NCBI GenBank assembly: GCA_000467715.1
Contig: AJFK01000423.1
Span: forward strand, 1-64,000
Direction: 5' to 3'
DNA length: 64,000 nt
DNA from: Hysterium pulicare CBS 123377
Lineage: Eukaryota > Ascomycota > Dothideomycetes > Hysteriales > Hysteriaceae
Position 1 is the stretch's first letter, and the number at the start of each line of letters is the position of its first letter. Below, in pieces: positions 18,090-64,000 of this stretch. Under the pieces are notes generated by a model that did no database searches, was not told the origin of the DNA, and saw nothing but the letters and a program-made list of their open reading frames with translations. Both the position numbers and the translations under genes were made by a program.

Positions 18090-19583
18090 CTAAAGCTGCT
18101 CATTGACGAATAGTCCAGCCATACCCATGCCCAAACCAATGCACATACTCGTCAACAAGATCTGCTTCTTCTGCCTTCTACATTCGCTAAGACCCGTGAC
18201 GATCTGTCGAGTACCTGTGCAGCCAAGCTTCGAACCATTAGTGAAACTCTCGCACAACGTATACTGAAGGAAACTTACAGGATGGCCTAGAGCAATAGCT
18301 CCACCCCTGACATTCAATTTCGAGGGGTCAATCTTCAGCTCGTTGGTGCAGTAGACTGCCATACTAGCGAATGCTTCATTGATCTCAATGAGATCAACAT
18401 CATCAAGCGTCATGTTAAACTTCGTAAGGAGCTTGGGAATGGCAATAGATGGACCAATACCCATAATCCTAGGCGCAAGTCCAGCGACGGTAGCACCGAC
18501 ATACTTGGCCAGTATGGGTTGACCGAGCTCCTCAGCCTTCGAACGCTTCATCAGCAGCACGGCCGCCGCTCCGTCGGTAACTTGAGAGGAGTTGCCACCA
18601 GTGCTCTTGTCACCATGTGGCATGAATGCAGGCCGGATTTTGGAGAGAGCCTCGTATGTGGTTCCATATCTTGGCCCCTCATCTTTGATCAATGTAAGCC
18701 CCTTCTCCTCCCCTGTCTTAGGATCCTTGACCTTGACTTTGATGGGCACAATCTCATCGTCAAACCATCCAGCCTTCTGTGCGACTTCCGCTCGCCTATA
18801 ACTCTCTGTGGCGAAACGATCCTGCGACTCTCTTGAGATGTTAAAAGCATTCCCTACGTTCTCAGATGTTTGTCCCATAGGCTGCATGCAATCGGAAGCC
18901 TCCTGATTTTCTAGAATCTCGTCATCGAAGGGTCGGGTAAGACGATCACCACCAGCGGTCATGGATTCAGCGCCCATTGCGACACCAACTTCAATGCTGC
19001 CCATGGAAATTTGGTTGGCGATGTCTTGAACGGCCTTGAGTCCGGAACTACAGAAGCGATTGACCGAAGATCCAGCGGTAGTGTTGGGGAAGCCAGCAGC
19101 GAGCATGGCGGCGCGGACGTAATAGGCGGCTTTGGAATCTGAGACCTAAATGGACGAGAGGAGTCAGTTTCAAGCTCGATGTGGGGCCAAGTTGTGTTTG
19201 AGTCCAAACATTGCTTTATGTTGCAAAGTACAGAAAGAAGAATGACATACGTTGCCCACGCAAATATCTTCTACCATCTGAGGATCTAACCTCGATTTCT
19301 GAACCACCTGCTGCAGTATCTTGAACATCAAAGCGTCAAGTGTGGTGTCCTTGAAACCACCTTTGAACGCCTTCGTGAGCGGCGTGCGAATGGCGAGGGT
19401 TATGACAATATCATCGGGGTTCTTGGTGGTTCTAATTACATTTAATACAAATCCGTACCATTGACAGAGACAAACATTGCTGCTGGGTTTGAATGTGGCG
19501 TGCGAGGGTTCAACTTACATGGAAGCAAGCCCGCTCTTGCTGGGCGTCATGTGGGACAGAATGGAGTTTAGTCGTTCGGTCAT
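18090..19583 (-). CDS. 3-ketoacyl-CoA thiolase, peroxisomal type
   Basis: Four exons (19583-19519, 19431-19251, 19145-18279, 18227-18090) give 416 aa. The enzyme cleaves 3-ketoacyl-CoA in beta-oxidation. The nucleophile Cys lies in NRFCSSGLKA, the NEAF motif in EINEAFASMA, the active-site His in GGAIALGHP, and the second catalytic Cys in MCIGLGMGMAG. The last intron splits GHP from LGCTGTRQ, restoring the family motif. Residues near the N-terminus, RLNSILSHM, fit a PTS2 peroxisomal signal (R-L-x5-H) except that the last position is Met rather than Leu or Ala. There is no PTS1; the end is NEQL. Peroxisomal location is therefore likely but depends on this variant signal. Confidence 0.94.
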
Positions 19584-28877: not shown

Positions 28878-31800
28878 TTATAGACCTCTCATTAACTCAT
28901 CAAGCGTAACAGGTTTCCTAACTGCATTCGAGAACCCCTCATGAAAACTGACCCAGACTCTACCCACATCATCAGGGTCCTTCTCATTCTTCCTCTTCTT
29001 CTTCGTGACCTCAACCCCGACAACAGGCTCCAGCTGAGTAGCCACAACTCTCCCAAAGAAATCCCGCTTAACCCCTTTTTCCTTTTCCCTTGCTTTCTTC
29101 GTTTCCTCGTTATCTACTCTCGTGTCTTCCACCTCTTCGGCATCAACTTGACCACCACGCTTCTTTCGAGCTTCTGCATTCAGCTTCGCACTCTCACGCT
29201 TCCATTCCATTTCCAGCACTTGCCTGACTGCAAATCTGACCTTTTCTTCTTTCTTTCCGGCCATCGTTTCAAAAACGCCGATTTGATCAAGTGGTGGTTC
29301 CATTCTGAACACCCATCCACCGCTTCTGCTATTCGGGTCATCAAACTCGACTTTACTTCTTTCAAAACGTACTCCAGTTGCAGCCATAGCGTCCACTGCC
29401 CTCTTTACAAGCAACTTTTCACTTGCTTTCCTGACCGAGGCTGTTGCCGCTGTCCTATTGCTAGTCGTGCCAGTGTTGACGATTACAGGTTTAACGTCAG
29501 GAGAGAGCAGGCGTAGGATATAAGGGAGAAAGTCCGTAGCAAGGTCTTCAGGAGACCGGAATAAGCGAGTAAGTGGTAAACTTAATGTCGAATGCAGCCC
29601 TGTCAGCTGAGCACGGTTTGATTTCTGCAGTTCAGATGCTGTGTATGGGGCGCTAGAACCAGAGAATGGGGCAGCAACATCAGCGGTCTGGTCGGCTTTT
29701 GTGGAAGCAGAACTACGCATATTTCCGGGTGATGCGAAGAGGTGATGAAAGGCAAGAACGGATTGTGATAGATAGGGAGCAAGTTCCCACTCTTGGGAAC
29801 CATGTACAGCTGATGAGAGCGTATCATGAAAGTGTAGCCAGTCGTACGCTGAGGTCGGCTTGCTGAGAAGCGTGTCGTCTTGGAAACGTTGGCTTGGATA
29901 GGATGTGAAGCAGTCTATACGGGATGTGAGCATGTTCCAAAGTATTGATAATAGGTTGGAGCCTTACCCGTTACAATTCTGTCGCAGTCTCCGCTGGTGT
30001 CGACCATTTCTCTCAATCTGTCCATAGCTCGTCGTTTACTCGCTTCAGCTACGCCAACTGCTCCTTTCGTGTCTGAGCGTCCCGTCTGTTGATAAGTAAA
30101 GTTTCCACTCTTAGGGAATCCCGCGCCCTCCTTAAACACACGTTCAACAACTTCTTTCGCTCCTCCTCGACCAAGACTCCTGGCAGCTCCACCTCCGTGC
30201 GATAGATCGCTGAGAATGTTCTCCTCGATCCATCCTCTTGTCAACCTCATAGTGCCAGGAGCGGAGTGCATGGAAGCTCGAAGTTTCCCTGCAACCCATT
30301 CGCCTACCACCATTACACCACGTATGTCGCCCTCGCCGGTCCCACTGCCAGTACCGCCTTCTTTCTTCGTGCTGACACCCCAGGTAGCCTCGCATAGGCG
30401 ACGCACGCCGTCGGAATTGCAAGGAATTCCCTCCTTTTCGAAAATTGAATGCATCCGAGACACTATCATGTTGAGCGGCGGCTTGCGAATATGGATTATT
30501 TCTGCAATAGATGTTTGGCGTAAGGGTCGTAAGGAGGGGTGATAGACATCGTTGCAGATTAGAATCAAGGGTCGGAGTAGCCGAAATCTATCCCCTTTGC
30601 GCTTCTTCTTCGTAGGTGCTGCAGAACTTTGTGGCCCAATAGAGCGGGAGTTCTTTTCGTCAAGGTTGATTAGATCAATCAAGGCTTTGATAAAGCCACC
30701 TTCACCACCACCTCCGCTTCCACCAACGACTCCATCTACTTCATCCACCACAACGCACACGGGTTTACCAGCCTTACGAACTTTGCCAGATGCTGTATTA
30801 GTATTTACACCCTTGACGTTCTCAGTGCCGACCATATCTCGGATTCGACCTTTCACAACTTCTCGACTACGTTCATCACTGGCATTGATCTCTTGGACCT
30901 CGTAACCGGCTTGTCTTGCGCACACGTGCGCCAATGTAGTTTTCCCCAGACCAGGAGGGCCTGTAAGGAGAAGAATTTTGCGGTGCTTTTGCTCTTCACC
31001 ATCATCTTGTCCGTGTTTTCCAGGCTTCGCTTTCGGCTTGCTTGAACCGGGGAATACAATTGGGTCCCAGTTCTTCAGCCAACGCAGCACTGATCGATGT
31101 GTTCGTTCGTCGCCGACTAGGTCTGTAAATTTCCGTGCGCGGTACTTCTCAGTCCACATGAGAGTCCTGTTACTTTTGTTACTCTGACAGTGGCCTGCAG
31201 GTTGCTCAATACTTTCTCTTGCAGTCTCGTTGCTCGCTTCGCGCTCAGCGTTCTTCGCTTCTTTTACCTTCGCAGCATCATCTATCAGTTGGTGGATATC
31301 GATACCATAATAGCTCTTTCTCGCGTGGCCAGGTTCCGCGACTGATCGGGATGCGATCAACTGCTCGTAGGGGACAGCAGGCTTCTCGAGTTTCCGTGCA
31401 ATATACGTGGACTTCCCAGAAGCGGTCACAGCCATCAACGGACGCCTGTTGGTGGCCGAGTAGACTTCTGGCGGGGTCTGGATGGGCTTTACTGGCGAGG
31501 GAGACTCGAAATAGTGGTCTAAGTCCGCGACTGGTACAGTTTCTGGGTCCACGTCCGTGTCGTCTTGACTTGCTGGTGGAGTAGTATTGTCCACGGGATT
31601 AGGAAAGGACGGGACCTCCTTGATGCTAGTAAACGCCCTCCTCTTGGTGTTGGCAGCCTTCAACGCAGCCAGCTCGTCCTCATCATCCGATTCATCCAGA
31701 AACCCTCCTATTATCCTCGTTGACTGGTTCGGGCCGACATCTTTCAAGGGGCTCCGAACAACGTCAGGCCTCTTCCTTTTCTTTGGTGTTGTTGCATTTG

Positions 31801-32228
31801 GAGAGGAGCTGGGTGGGTATGTGACCGGCGAAGAGATCATCGGCATGGTGAGACTGGGTGGGGAGGATGGTGGGATTTGGAAATCTAGAAAGGTCCTCGA
31901 ATATGCGTTGGTGGTGCAAGATTTAGAACCTTTTACAGGAGTGTCTATTCCTAATAAGCTTCTGTTCAAATATTCATTCGACGCGCAGTCTGTAATTACC
32001 GATCGCGTAGTCCTCTTCACTCCTAAAAACCTCGGGAATATGCCAGGCCCTATGTTGAATGACTACACCAAGCTCGTTCTTTCGCACTGTCGCTTCCTCG
32101 ACCTGCAATTGTAGTGCTTCTAGTTCGTCCGAATGAGAGACAAACGCGTCCTGCAGCTGATCGAGTTCAGAGTGGAGGTGTATTGCAGGGTCGAAAGAAG
32201 AAGGTAACCTAGGAGATGAGTTGAACAT
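28878..32228 (-). CDS. CTF18: CTF18, large subunit of the alternative clamp loader RFC-Ctf18
   Basis: Three exons (32228-32000, 31950-29968, 29914-28878) give 1082 aa. Ctf18-RFC loads PCNA and supports sister-chromatid cohesion and the replication checkpoint in the nucleus. After a coiled N-terminal part comes the entry MWTEKYRARKFTDLVGDERTHR, then Walker A LLTGPPGLGKTTLAHVCARQ, the RFC box EINASDERS, and Walker B CVVVDEVDGV. The C-terminal collar includes DCFTSYPSQRFQDD and YDWLHFHDTLSS, both Ctf18-like. The 49-nt first intron joins YAIG to IDTPVKG and brings in a typical N-terminus. The 53-nt second intron restores CDRIVTDCF. Two ACGCG cores lie upstream. Confidence 0.93.
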
Positions 32229-32811
32229 AAGTCTAGCGTATATGGGAAGAAGTTGTCTTCATCATTGTGAATTCAATGTCGTGTTAAAGAGTTTCACGGC
32301 AGAGTCGCGAACGCGACTTGGAAGCTCGACGCGCAGCTTGTCCGTGCACTGCCAAGCTTCGAGCCCCGGTCACGTGAATACTGTCTTTGGACCACATCAG
32401 TCTTCATGTACCAGCTCAGCCTAAGTAATACATACTAAAAAAGCCTTTTCCACTATTCTTGATTAGACTAAATTGCGCCGGTACATCCGGGATCTTGCAG
32501 TGTACGACAAAGCCATTAACATTCTTTGCTGGAGCTCAAACCTGTTCGGTAAACAGGGTCAACCCTCTGGGCACATCCCAAAGCATCAGAATTAACCAGG
32601 CCTGTTTATGAGGATTAGCATTAGAAGTAGGTTTGTGTCCTTTATCTTCTGTTGTTGGGTCATAGTCACATGCAATTCTCCACTCTGTGGGGCTGAAAAA
32701 CTGAGGTGTTGGGTAGCTTTGGGCTGAAATTCTGCCCCACCCAAATCGAGTGTTTCTCTGTCTTATTATGTCACTATATTTTAGTTTTAAAATTTGTCTT
32801 TTCCAAATCAA
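32229..32811. promoter_or_regulatory. CTF18 promoter with ACGCG (MCB-like) cores
   Basis: The 110 bp upstream of the ATG at 32228 holds GTCGCGAACGCGAC (32304-32317), an inverted repeat containing ACGCG at 32311, and a second GACGCG at 32328. ACGCG is the core of MluI cell-cycle boxes bound by MBF in ascomycetes. CTF18 is a replication gene, so G1/S control is plausible. No other feature was seen up to the tRNA gene. Confidence 0.45.
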
Positions 32812-32836
32812 AGCTGAATGGCGCAGCGGAAGCGCG

Positions 32837-32890
32837 GTAAGTTCATACAGCCTTCGACATAATTAAACGCATGCTGATTGCCTACGGCAG
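32837..32890 (+). other. Spliceosomal-type intron in tRNA (between positions 26 and 27)
   Basis: 54 nt, beginning GTAAGTTCAT and ending TACGGCAG. A branch-like CTGAT (fungal CTRAY) lies about 13 nt before the end. Its length and signals match the protein-gene introns of this window. Confidence 0.75.
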
Positions 32891-32901
32891 CCGGGCTCAT
32901 A

Positions 32902-32922
32902 GGGACGAAAAAGACACTATAA
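32902..32922 (+). other. Canonical tRNA intron (between positions 37 and 38)
   Basis: 21 nt, starting GGGACG, inserted after A37 next to the anticodon. This is the site used by the tRNA splicing endonuclease. The exact border is uncertain by one or two A residues. Confidence 0.7.
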
Positions 32923-32931
32923 ACCCGGAGG

Positions 32932-32989
32932 GTAGGTTCTCATGATATTCTAAGTGTGCACAATTCGTTTAGTTACTAATTTCGTATAG
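32932..32989 (+). other. Spliceosomal-type intron in tRNA (variable region)
   Basis: 58 nt, beginning GTAGGTTCTC and ending TTCGTATAG, with a TACTAAT branch-like motif about 15 nt before the end. It lies in the variable region between G46 and position 47. Confidence 0.75.
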
Positions 32990-33020
32990 ACAGCGGATCG
33001 AAACCGCTTTCAGCTAATCG

Positions 33021-33027
33021 TTTTTTT
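33021..33027 (+). terminator. Pol III T-tract terminator
   Basis: Seven T residues start 5 nt after the tRNA 3' end; a second TTTTT follows 2 nt later. This is the normal place for a tRNA terminator. Confidence 0.85.
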
Positions 33028-33568
33028 CCTTTTTGCTGGTGCGTTGCTGGAAGTTTGGACATATAGTATTTCTACTTCAGGTGCTCATGTTCGAGCCGTC
33101 GTCGAAGCATTATTTCCCGAAGCGAGAGCTTTTACAGCAGCCAAAACTACCGCCCAGGCATCTTACATTCATTAAAATTATAACAAAAGTGGTAACGGTA
33201 TTATTTTGAGACTCTTTGGCTCATATATCTAGCAACCTTTAAATAAGGACACTATTTCGGAAAGAGCTCCCAATTTTGGATGAAAGCCGCCGCATACAAG
33301 AATACCGGGGAACATCTGCACCGCATCCGAACCGCCATATTGAGCTTTAAGTCCTACTTCATGATGCCGTTTAGAGTTTTCACCATGCCTGGGAACAAAA
33401 GGTGAGAAAACTTGCCCAAATAATACGCAGTCAAGAGAGATTCCACTAATTCAGTCATCATAAGTCAAACTTGAGGCCGGAAGGAACATACTCCGCTCTA
33501 ACTTAGGTACCAAGTAAGAATAATTCGATGTTTTCTATCAAATTAGTAGGCTCGGTGTCAATATAGCC

Positions 33569-35160: not shown

Positions 35161-36550
35161 ATGGCGGAACCGTGCGCATTTGTAGAACTAAGAGCTTTAC
35201 CATCGGATCTTCGATCCGGGGCCAATAGGCCGCAACCTTCCCTCTCCTATCTGATGGAACCACAGAATTCCGTCGGAGATGAATCTGCACCAAAGCGACA
35301 ATCCGATTCCTACACCAGCACGTTTACGGCGTCCAAAGTACCATCCCGGGAGAAGAAGCGACGAAGGTTCAATTTCGCGAGAAAGAGGAAAAGCACGCCT
35401 AAGTATCCCTGGGAAAACGAAACGATCATTCGCCGATGTAAGTCTATACATCGATAATCGGACCTTTGTGTTGATTGAATATAGTGGAAGAGTGTGTAAA
35501 TGGATATCCACGCCTCGCTGCTTTTCTAGACAGCGACGAGAACTTCATGATCTTTCGTCGATTTGGATATTTGCAGACTCGACTGCTCTTAGAGAAACAA
35601 GCCCAACTCGTTGAATTGGAGAGAGAACTTGACGAGAAGGATCAGGACGAGGCAGAACGCGACGAACAACTTCTAAAAACGGTAGAGAGGGCTGAACCGG
35701 AAGCTACTCAGCGTCGAATCTTGCTAGGCAGAATCGAACAATGTTTTAGAGAATACTGTAAGTCATTATGATCCATCTTTCTTCTACGGTAAATCAATCT
35801 AAATGTCGCTCCAGCCACCCTCTTGACTGCTGTTCAACAGATGCGATGCTTTGAAAGGCCCACAGAGCGCGACTATCAAAGTATTGTGACTTACAACTGG
35901 AACAGCAAACCCGTCGTCGCCACAGAGGACACTTGGATTCGCTCAAAGGAAGATCTCGTCGCGCTTAGGCCACCGAAGGAGCCCGACTGGCTTGAAGTGA
36001 AGACAGAAAATTTGCTACGACGGTTCAGTTCTCGCTTTCTTACAGTAAGTGTTTTGACTCAATCCTAACGTATTATATCAGTTACTAAGTGTACACAAGA
36101 ATATATTTACAGATAACGTATGTATGCACCCACGCTTCCATCCGAACCCGAGTGATTCTCATTGCCTACTCAGACGACTCGATTGAAAACAGCCGATACG
36201 CACATTCATCTCTACAGCGCAGCAAAAATCCAACGTGTAGGAACTACCATTGTAGCACTCATCGTGGCCATCTTGCTCGTGCTTCCCATTCTCCTCTGCT
36301 ACATTTTGGTCTCAAACATTGGGGGAAGCAAAGGATACTGGGGATGCATCGGCGTACTTTTCTTCTTCACCATGGTTTTCTCATGTGCCATGGCCTCTTA
36401 CTCCAATGCGAGGAGGCATGAGGTGATAAGTGCAACTGCGGCGTGAGTCTCACTAATACTACAACCCGCATTCCGGAAATTGATGCTGACCATCATTCTA
36501 GATACTGCGCCGTCCTGGTCGTCTTCCTGGGCAATGCTGCCAAACAATGA
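35161..36550 (+). CDS. DUF6594 family membrane protein
   Basis: Five exons (35161-35437, 35485-35757, 35815-36044, 36174-36442, 36502-36550) give 365 aa. After a basic N-terminus comes GYPRLAAFLDSDENFMIFRRF and a coiled coil rich in Glu/Asp (residues about 105-160), both typical of DUF6594. Then RSKEDLVALRPPKE and a C-terminal group of three membrane segments: VGTTIVALIVAILLVLPILL, a Phe-rich middle helix, and YCAVLVVFLGNA. The joining motif SYSNARRHEVISATAAY is diagnostic. The protein probably sits in a membrane with a cytosolic coiled coil; the function is unknown, but the family is often next to self-recognition genes in fungi. The 129-nt fourth intron is the least certain splice. Confidence 0.83.
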
Positions 36551-57989: not shown

Positions 57990-60771
57990 TCAAGGAAGTC
58001 CGGAATATCTCTGCGACGGTGGGAGAGTGGTAAGCTGGTAAGGGAAGGCAACATTCATCGGCATCCCATCAACCTTGCGCAGGAATTCCCGAACTCTTCC
58101 GACCTCGACCTCGCCCACAGGCACGGGTTCGCTCTCCAGCGCCTGCACAAGCCCGTCTAAGACCTCGTCGACTTTCGTTTCATCCACGCTCGTACAAAGA
58201 CTAACGACTTTTCTGTACATGGTCTCCAACTCCCCATCTTTCTGCTTCAATGCCTTACTCCTGGTCGCGAGCGCAACATTGTTCTTGACGTAACTCTCTA
58301 GTCTTTGTCTCAGCACAACAGGAGATGGCAGATGCGACAGATACTGCTGGTTCTGTGGGGAGAGTGAAGATAGGTCGAGGGAGGCGGACGAAGAGGATGA
58401 GAAAGTCAGGAAATCACGACCAGACGATGAAGGAGGGATGTGGTGCATCCTCTGTCTTGCGGAATCGGGAAGTTCTTCAGGGCGTACGATGACACCAGCA
58501 CCATCTCTATCTGCGTCACCAAGTCTTACTTTGCCTGCCCCATGCAAAGAACTGGGATCTGTGACGCTGAGAGCGCGCCTTTGAGTATCGAGCCAGCGAC
58601 GGAGATTTGTAATGCGTTGGGCACGGTCCGTACGAGCGCGGAGACGAGTGCGTAGGGTGTCTAGACGTGCAGACTCACTTTTCTGGAGGGCAGAGAGTTG
58701 AGCGATGGATTCGTTGATGCGGTCGATGGTATCTTGTTTCAGGCGTGCTTCTTGGGTGTATTGCACCGTCACTGATTGGAGAAAGGAGGATAAGACTAGA
58801 TCGAGAACGTTAGAACTTCGAAAGCAAGATTTGAAACTGGAGCCCACTTACGTGGTTGAATCTCTCTACTGGTCTCATCAACCTTGCTTAACGGTGCTTT
58901 ACTCTTGCTGGGTGAACTCATCTGCGTCGCTGGGAGCACTTCAGCCCCCTCCAAGTCATTTCCGACGCCGAAATCTATCGGCCGCATGCCCTTGTGGTTC
59001 GGTATTGTTGGATCGGCTTGCACTTCCATCAACTGAGAGATGATGTTCCGGTTCCCGATTCTGGCTGCGAGATTTAGAGCTGTATTGCCAGCCTTGTCCC
59101 TGGCGTTGACCATCTCTTGCATGAACCTCATCAGGCCTATTGGCTTAGGTATATTGCCATTGCCCTCGAATGAGCTCGATTGACTGCTACTGCTATTGCT
59201 TCGAACGAGGTATTCGAGAAGAGCTTCCAAGTAATATTTACTGGAAGCAGCACGACCTTTGATAGCGCAAGTTACTGCAATGTGATGCAGAATAGTACGG
59301 CCCTGCGCATCTCTCAGTTCAATAAGGGGTGCTAATATTTCCAAGGTCTCTGGGAAACAGCTGTGATCCAAGCTGTTGTTTACTGAAACGGCGCTCATAA
59401 GTGGCGTTTGCCCAGCGGCATTTCCTCGGAACATGTTTGCTCCTTTTGAGACAAGTAACCGCATCAGCGAAACGCGTGCAAGGGTAGCCGCCCAATGCAA
59501 TGCGGTGTTAGCCGTGTTGTCGATTGGCATGTCTAGATCGGAACCGGAGAGATGGACTATTGCTGGGTGGTTGCTGAAGTCTGTTCGAGATTGATCGGCG
59601 AAGAGATCAGTCAACATGGCTTGTTTCTCTTCAGCAACTTTCTCACTAGGTGGAGGAAGGGGTGCGAAAGCAGTTGGAACATCGCCATCAGCAGTTGAAA
59701 AGTTGTGGCCCGTTTGGTAGAAGGATTCATTTGGCTCTGTTGGCGACCCATCACGCATGGATATGTCCAGTCCGTTGGGCTGAGAGAAGGAGTCTTCCTG
59801 GGACGGTCTCATTCGCTTCCTTGGGGGTTCTTGTGAATCGGCTGCACCATCCATATTTTCGCTAAATTGCCCAGTACCATATGCAGAATCGGTAGCGCCG
59901 TTCGCTCCGAAGCTGCGCTCGGATGCAAGGCTTGGAATACTTTGTTGGCTGCTTGCTCGGAAAGATTCTTGGCTTCCAATGGGTCCTTGGGATGGTCGTC
60001 CCATCGATCGCCTTTGAGAAGAGCTTCCCGGCCGAGGTGCTGGGGAGTTCATCCGGGCGACTTTGTTCATAGCAGCAAGAGCATTGGTGGCTGTGGAGGA
60101 TATATTGGAGAAGAAGGTTCCACCAACATTCTGGTTTGTGTTTCGACCATCCATACTTTGCGTATAGAACCTTTTTCTGTTTGCCGCCATGGCTTGCTCC
60201 TTGGTAGGGGTCTCAATTCCTTGTCCAGAGTTCCCATCATTGCTCACGTCATAGTCCAACAGAGGTCTGAGAATATCCTCCACGCCATATTGGCGACAGA
60301 ACTCCCTTCCTCGGCGATAATTTATCCAGGTGCCTTGGTATTTTCCGTAGCCGCCTTGAACCTTCTCGTGCTCTCCGGTCAATATCTCTTTCTCCAGCAC
60401 CTTTGTGCGTTTGCCTTTATCGACACCGGCGACCTTGAGGATTTGGGTAGCATTCAGCCAGGAGTCGGAACGTCTTCTCATGACAGCGATACGGTTGACT
60501 TCCATTTCGTAGACGGAGACGCCCGAATAAACAGCCTTGGCGAAGCCATGTCAGTAATGTGGGGTTTCAGAGAGCGCATGTGTCCGCGCAAACATACAGT
60601 ATAGATCTGAGGCTTCTCCATAGGATGCGGAGTGTAGCCATTGACGTCTGAAAAACTCCTGTTGAAGGACGACGGGGCCATCATGCCGTGTGACGAATTG
60701 CCGTACATGGCGGGCTGGGACGAAGCACCAGAAGGGAATGAGGATGCTAGGGACGAGCGCGCGACTTGCAT
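57990..60771 (-). CDS. MBP1: APSES/KilA-N transcription factor, MBP1-type subunit of MBF
   Basis: Three exons (60771-60598, 60535-58852, 58795-57990) give 887 aa. MBF drives G1/S genes. The DNA-binding KilA-N/APSES domain starts PQIYTAVYSGVSVYEMEVN and includes RRRSDSWLNATQILKVAGVD and YGKYQGTWINYRRGREFCRQ. Ankyrin repeats lie at about residues 390-590 (NTALHWAATLARVSLMRLLV, GRTILHHIAVTCAIKGRA, GNTALNLAARIGNRNIISQL). The C-terminal third is a coiled coil for pairing with the Swi6-type partner. The 62-nt first intron and 56-nt second intron keep frame. MBP1 rather than SWI4 is favoured by the N-terminal DNA-binding domain and by filamentous ascomycetes usually having a single such factor. The promoter has cell-cycle-box-like sites. 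Confidence 0.9.
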
Positions 60772-63473: not shown

Positions 63474-64000
63474 ACATGGTGTAAAGACCTTACGAAGAGC
63501 AATGGGGCTTTTCAACCCCTTGGATCCTCCTAGGCTGTTCTTGGGAGCGTGCGAGCAGAGTGGATATCGGGTAACATCTAGTTTCCAGGATACCCAAGAA
63601 TGACCGCAGCTTATCTCAAGCTCTGAATGAAGTTCATACAGCAACTAGATCACTTGCCAAAAGCTTGTTTTCCTAATACGCTGTCTCCAATCCATCGTCT
63701 ATCTCTCATTGAATCCTTCTTTGTCAACGTTCCCTACTAACTTATACTTTTGCTTATATTCTAATGAGTCATAGCTCGGGATAATCCCTTTCACACCCAC
63801 CACATCCGTTCGAATCCCTCAACGCCTTCTAGCCGGAGCAACGATCCTCCGTTCTCCGAAAAACTCCCTCCATTGTCTCTTGACTATAAGAGCCTCATGC
63901 TCCTAAACGAACTTGTTCTCTCTTCTTCACCAACTACGAGTTGTTGTAAGGTTTCCAAAAATCGACCCTCGGGGAGTCCGTATGGAAAGAGAGACTGTCT
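63474..64000. other. Right-edge intergenic
   Basis: 3' flank of the acetyltransferase gene, followed by pyrimidine-rich DNA near 63730-63920 that may be the start of a promoter for a gene beyond the window. Confidence 0.4.

Follow-up and report, generated by a model that had tools for sequence, protein, structure and literature searches.

Can a nuclear transfer RNA (tRNA) gene accommodate introns of the kind that the spliceosome removes from messenger RNA (mRNA)? This question is raised by a locus within a 64,000-nt stretch of the genome of Hysterium pulicare CBS 123377 (contig AJFK01000423.1, positions 1 to 64,000; the whole of this stretch is referred to here as the window). Positions 32812-33016 on the forward strand were confirmed to represent a gene for initiator tRNA-Met (tRNA-iMet), which is interrupted by two spliceosomal-type introns and one ordinary tRNA-type intron.

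The tRNA-iMet gene is 205 bp in length and consists of four exons of 25, 11, 9 and 27 nt, as delimited on the forward strand by ARAGORN together with an enumeration of possible insert positions. Exon 1 (32812-32836) supplies tRNA positions 1-26, i.e. the 5′ strand of the acceptor stem, the D arm and G26, and exon 2 (32891-32901) supplies positions 27-37, i.e. the 5′ strand of the anticodon stem, the anticodon CAT and A37. Exon 3 (32923-32931) corresponds to positions 38-46, and exon 4 (32990-33016), which was also recovered by the split-tRNA scan described below, to positions 47-73, encompassing the T arm with loop ATCGAAA, the 3′ strand of the acceptor stem and the discriminator A. These exons are separated by a 54-nt insert at 26/27 (32837-32890), running from GTAAGT through CTGAT (branch A at 32877) to CAG; by a 21-nt insert at 37/38 (32902-32922); and by a 58-nt insert at 46/47 (32932-32989), running from GTAGGT through CTAAT (branch A at 32979) to TAG. 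Based on ARAGORN, an intron model and the enumeration, the 26/27 and 46/47 inserts (here termed ectopic) were assigned as spliceosomal-type introns, while ARAGORN and folding identified the 37/38 insert as an ordinary tRNA intron by position.

Removal of the three inserts yields a 72-nt eukaryotic initiator tRNA-Met with 21 of 21 stem pairs, anticodon CAT, an A1:U72 pair and T-loop AUCGAAA, and the spliced-together exons were reported by ARAGORN as tRNA-Met(cat). The cloverleaf, the CAT anticodon, the A1:U72 pair and A60 in the T loop are marks of eukaryotic initiator tRNAs, and all four were found. The T loop also displays A54-U55-C56, itself an initiator mark according to the available part of PMC3978253 (all sources cited here by PMC accession were available in part, and the statements that rest on them extend to those parts). 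The original prediction had described fully paired helices of 7, 4, 5 and 5 bp once three inserts are taken out, as well as the sites, donors, acceptors and lengths of the two ectopic inserts, all of which were reproduced, as was its statement that the A and B boxes are held apart yet intact.

The positions of the inserts were examined by an enumeration that allowed 40-69 nt for the first insert, 15-27 nt for the middle insert and 40-75 nt for the last, and that demanded a remainder of 72 nt with 21 stem pairs and the loop CTCATAA. In total, 32 solutions were obtained, representing two phases at 26/27, two at 37/38 and eight at 46/47. Structure alone leaves an uncertainty of one base in the placement of the first insert and of the middle one, and eight phases for the 46/47 insert because the variable loop is unpaired. 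One of the two phases at 26/27 has GT..AG ends.

The reality of the gene was assessed with a split-tRNA scan, which combined a T arm and acceptor stem with T8 and a D arm and allowed the T arm to start up to 420 nt past the 5′ end. From four T arms, a single match was returned in the window, corresponding to the tRNA-iMet gene, whereas no match was returned by any of 40 windows randomised by a first-order Markov model (5.3 T arms each on average), which argues that the tRNA is real. ARAGORN and Rfam overlook or misname the gene. At default settings, ARAGORN reported nothing in the raw window and, with introns allowed, it called a tRNA-Lys with a 125-nt intron. Rfam returned no tRNA in the whole window at gathering scores, nor in 32700-33150 at E ≤10, where the one match was unrelated and scored 9.9 bits against its cut-off of 70.

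Type 2 genes of RNA polymerase III (Pol III) are marked by an A box, a B box, a T-run terminator and the absence of an early T-run, and the sequence appears to provide all of these. Judged by their general consensus, an A box (TGGCGCAGCGG; 32819-32829) and a B box (GGATCGAAACC; 32995-33005) are present on the forward strand, with starts 176 bp apart. A run of seven T residues (33021-33027), followed by a five-T run at 33030, likely represents the Pol III terminator, and TTTT is absent inside the 205-bp gene. In addition, a TATA-like stretch (TATATTTTA; 32775-32783) located 29-37 bp upstream of the mature 5′ end was read from the forward strand as a possible Pol III upstream element. A host transcript of RNA polymerase II (Pol II) for this locus appears unlikely; the forward-strand stop-to-stop open reading frames (ORFs) that end within 700 bp upstream comprise 181 (antisense to an AAA ATPase gene), 87, 60 and 55 aa, a 61-aa ORF overlaps the last exon and a 63-aa ORF begins just past the gene. 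On the reverse strand, a 108-aa ORF overlaps the first part of the tRNA gene.

The likeness of the ectopic inserts to local mRNA introns was evaluated against ten reference introns in the EF2, thiolase, Spf1-type ATPase and glutaminyl-tRNA synthetase (GlnRS) genes of the window. These introns are 51-105 nt in length (nine of 51-63 nt and one of 105 nt), with donors GTAAGT (six), GTATGT (three) and GTATGG (one), and each contains a CTRAY motif, the nearest of which lies 10-18 nt before the intron end. A matrix of donor, branch and acceptor was built from the ten introns, with the tRNA inserts kept out of training, and assigned scores of 20.07 and 20.24 to the 26/27 and 46/47 inserts, respectively, compared with 15.90-22.36 for the reference introns (leave-one-out). 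Among 127,892 segments of 54 nt and 127,884 segments of 58 nt from both strands, only the corresponding insert itself attained its score; as no reference intron is exactly 54 or 58 nt long, this control measures rarity rather than recovery of known introns. The probability of a chance occurrence is still very small after allowing for two and eight phases.

Both ectopic inserts combine the hallmarks of U2-type introns, i.e. a GT donor with extended consensus, an AG acceptor, a suitable length (54 and 58 nt) and a branch site, the A of which lies 13 nt (CTGAT, 26/27) or 10 nt (CTAAT, 46/47) before the end. By anatomy, they thus look like spliceosomal introns. The claim of the original prediction that the inserts resemble the protein-gene introns of the window was upheld, their scores falling within the range of the ten and above all segments of equal length, and its interpretation as spliceosomal-type introns is supported by the intron-model scores and by the lack of a strict endonuclease motif. 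Its placement of the branch motif 13-15 nt before the end holds for the motif as a whole, but not for the A of the 46/47 insert.

The 37/38 insert differs from the ectopic inserts in lacking GT-AG ends. It follows A37, one base 3′ of the anticodon, which is the position of the canonical tRNA intron and one that the other two inserts do not share. When the cloverleaf was enforced, the anticodon side paired with the intron in a 4-bp helix (ATAG/CTAT), and AA^A at the 3′ splice site stayed unpaired. Strict bulge-helix-bulge geometry, coded from its general description and applied in two phases, was absent from all three inserts: one of four positions agreed at 37/38, and the central helix reached at most two of four at 26/27 and one of four at 46/47, with up to three of four in the inner helix at both ectopic sites. 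Eukaryotic 37/38 introns need not possess the strict motif, as the tRNA body is believed to be the reference point from which the endonuclease measures (PMC4090602).

Several observations weigh against the interpretation of the ectopic inserts as spliceosomal introns of an intact Pol III gene. The reference introns were placed manually, guided by protein homology and by translations of the frames, with GT-AG ends assumed; junctions lie within alignments for three of the ten (EF2_c, THIO_b and GLN_b), and one side of each of the remaining seven depends on general knowledge of the conserved protein. Moreover, the branch matrix was trained on sites picked to fit CTRAY and is partly circular, and in EF2_c it picked a branch site 29 nt from the end despite one at 11 nt. 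None of the ten reference introns has the 46/47 donor GTAGGT, which scores 6.3, compared with 9.9 for GTAAGT. Furthermore, two of the eight phases at 46/47 have GT..AG ends, namely 32932-32989 (GTAGGT..TAG) and 32936-32993 (GTTCTC..CAG). The former is probably to be preferred, as its donor is nearer the local donors and it leaves C48 opposite G15, R15:Y48 being the usual tRNA pair (PMC3978253). The bulge-helix-bulge test counts little by itself because the ordinary 37/38 insert fails it too. Similarly, the absence of TTTT is consistent with Pol III transcription but not telling, because 112 nt of intron would lack this motif with a chance of ~0.5 (TTTT occurs in three of the ten mRNA introns). 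Finally, the free folding optimum of the joined tRNA lies 0.9 kcal/mol below the cloverleaf and has an anticodon stem of 3 bp. This result was discounted, since tRNA carries modifications and folds in three dimensions.

On balance, the locus quite probably represents a working nuclear tRNA-iMet gene, the Pol III precursor of which would lose two introns to the spliceosome and one to the tRNA endonuclease. From the anatomy, the motifs for promoter and terminator, and the resemblance of both ectopic inserts to local mRNA introns, we infer how transcription and splicing may proceed, in which order, and how the inserts may have originated. Directed by the internal A and B boxes, Pol III would transcribe as far as the T7 run, producing a precursor of ~205 nt plus ends. 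In the nucleus, the GT donors and the CTRAY branch sites would serve U1/U2 as recognition sites, after which the spliceosome would take out the 54- and 58-nt introns as lariats, and the variable loop and the stack of the D arm and anticodon arm would be restored. With the tRNA body available for measurement, the tRNA endonuclease would then excise the 21-nt intron at 37/38, and tRNA ligase would join the halves. Spliceosomal removal is placed first because the ruler mechanism needs the tRNA body (PMC4090602), the formation of which should be blocked by the ectopic inserts: the 54-nt insert parts the D arm from the anticodon arm, the 58-nt insert lies in the variable loop, and the D arm was unformed in the predicted unconstrained fold of the full precursor. 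The chemistry has precedents in the U6 small nuclear RNA (snRNA) of fission yeast, a Pol III transcript, and in the removal by yeast of a lichen intron from ribosomal RNA (rRNA) made by RNA polymerase I (Pol I).

More tentatively, this may be the sole or main initiator tRNA gene, such that all translation initiation would depend on the spliceosome, with an obligatory order of spliceosome then endonuclease, and other tRNA genes of the lineage may likewise have been invaded; this extended scenario is possible but somewhat doubtful. The most likely origin of the ectopic introns is a gain of spliceosomal introns, whether by reverse splicing, the route proposed for the U6 intron, or in another way. 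The two inserts are no more alike than expected by chance, as their score was matched in 662 of 1000 shuffles. No donor intron was identified in 20 insert by mRNA-intron comparisons, the lowest shuffle fractions of which (0.01 and 0.02, for the 26/27 insert against EF2_a and SPF_b) are expectable from 20 tests, and in the rest of the window the strongest match to either insert comprised 13 bases at 63630 (E 0.034).

The same anatomy could be presented by a copy that is dead or little used, and perhaps recently invaded, its inserts being real spliceosomal-type introns and its tRNA being supplied by uninterrupted initiator genes elsewhere. Such an arrangement would be in keeping with a review of eukaryotic insertions in the D or T arm, which are described as occurring mostly in one of many synonymous copies, supposed to be pseudogenes (PMC4090602). 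A dead copy should, however, have lost some of its features unless the insertions are very recent, and in this gene the 21 of 21 pairs, the initiator positions, the A and B boxes, the terminator and the splice signals of both introns are all kept; a dead or little-used copy is thus considered unlikely. The ectopic inserts could also be tRNA-type introns cut by the splicing endonuclease, given that ectopic and multiple introns are found in tRNA genes of Cyanidioschyzon and of the Guillardia nucleomorph (PMC3978253, PMC4090602), and that failure of the motif test is not decisive because many Guillardia introns are without a defined bulge-helix-bulge (PMC3978253). However, at such sites the inserts of Guillardia measure 3-24 nt (PMC4090602). 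The central helices at 26/27 and 46/47 are poor, and removal by the endonuclease would leave the GT-AG ends, the branch sites and the length match unexplained; it is considered very improbable.

Only a minimal probability is accorded to an interpretation of the inserts as tiny, degenerate introns of group I, resembling those of 56-81 nt in fungal ribosomal DNA (rDNA). The small group I class is expected to have U at the 5′ exon base; both upstream exons of the tRNA-iMet gene end in G and both inserts in AG, so that neither the 5′ exon base nor the last intron base of this class is found, notwithstanding the comparable length and the presence of such introns in ascomycete rRNA genes (PMC3160393). 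A chance or assembly artefact, in which no tRNA gene exists or the inserts are spurious, is equally remote. The silence of ARAGORN at default settings, its tRNA-Lys call and the lack of an Rfam tRNA match would fit an artefact, but such a mis-call is expected from a program that allows one intron in the anticodon loop, and none of the 40 randomised windows produced a split tRNA of this kind.

Pol II transcripts are usually described as the substrates of the spliceosome, and U6 snRNA and lichen rRNA are among the exceptions. Spliceosomal introns outside mRNA are already known, and what would be new here, as judged from the sequence, is their presence in a tRNA. If the tRNA-iMet gene is indeed transcribed and spliced as proposed, a very short, tightly folded and essential Pol III transcript can gain and retain spliceosomal introns, initiator tRNA supply is coupled to mRNA splicing, and the order of two unrelated splicing machines can be tested on one molecule. 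The gene would also represent a clean case of intron gain outside mRNA. More such genes may hide in fungal genomes, because the annotation tools run here missed or misnamed this one.

Further features of the window were recorded. On the reverse strand, 29915-32062 encodes the AAA ATPase mentioned above, which has a Rad17 P-loop match and the ORF of which has its upstream end 750 bp from the tRNA gene. On the forward strand, 35475-36446 contains ORFs resembling a fungal membrane protein, presumably of the DUF6594 type, and 58799-60550 on the reverse strand encodes ankyrin repeats and a KilA-N domain, which we take to be a cell-cycle transcription factor of the Mbp1/Swi6 type. Regarding the genes that provided reference introns, the second thiolase intron (18228-18278, reverse strand; 51 nt) is in frame and stop-free, so that translation of an unspliced message would continue across it and add 17 residues. 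The best solved relatives of EF2 and Spf1 are 7old and 8op3, both presumably from Chaetomium, which score above the yeast ones. For GlnRS, the yeast enzyme was the best match in one of two comparisons, and the best match of the thiolase was the peroxisomal 2iik, which we assume to be human. Although mixed, these matches point to a filamentous ascomycete as the probable source.

With regard to known systems, a literature search, for which most subscription journals were out of reach, revealed no report of a spliceosomal intron in a tRNA gene among the matches listed; the available part of PMC6652019 mentions tRNA once, in an organelle table. A D-arm pattern scan returned 18 viral-contig stretches and at least 118 stretches from prokaryote genome contigs. 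Among the D-arm stretches listed, at least 24 of 136 (25 matches) carry a T-arm motif within ~250 bases, spaced as in uninterrupted phage or bacterial tRNA genes, and two of these (L008 and L009) have a CAT anticodon by eye. These viral and prokaryotic matches are insert-free and uninformative on the tRNA-iMet gene. In one viral contig (L013), the D-arm pattern TGGCGCAGYGGAAGCGCG occurs in two distinct tRNA genes.

The tRNA genes of a red alga and of cryptophyte nucleomorphs resemble the tRNA-iMet gene in having several introns per gene and sites beyond 37/38 (PMC3978253, PMC4090602). They differ in that bulge-helix-bulge motifs seem critical in the red alga and in the small size of the Guillardia inserts, and in the available parts of these sources their introns are not described as GT-AG introns with a branch site (PMC3978253, PMC4090602). 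Introns of lichen ascomycete rRNA, a Pol I transcript, constitute a second close precedent besides U6, and one that was absent from the original prediction.

Spliceosomal introns in the nuclear rRNA genes of lichen ascomycetes were reportedly described by Bhattacharya et al. in 2000. In Cladonia grayi, an rRNA intron of 57 bp carries the donor GUAAGU, its branch and 3′ sites resemble those of yeast, and yeast excises it from rRNA once the donor is changed by one base to GUAUGU (PMC8527467). As in the tRNA-iMet gene, short introns (57 bp there, 54 and 58 nt here) thus reside in a non-mRNA transcript. In contrast to the Pol III tRNA gene, the host in lichens is multicopy rDNA transcribed by Pol I, and the source fungus of the present gene is not known as a lichen.

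The U6 intron of fission yeast is said to have been reported by Tani and Ohshima, and U6 introns are present in other fungi as well. The analogy with U6 drawn in the original prediction is sound, as the fission yeast U6 snRNA carries an mRNA-type intron, thought to derive from reverse splicing, within a Pol III transcript (PMC10484740), which is the feature shared with the tRNA-iMet gene. However, U6 is itself a component of the spliceosome, with its intron close to the catalytic bases, whereas a tRNA is no such component, and the tRNA-iMet gene harbours two such introns together with a third of the tRNA type.
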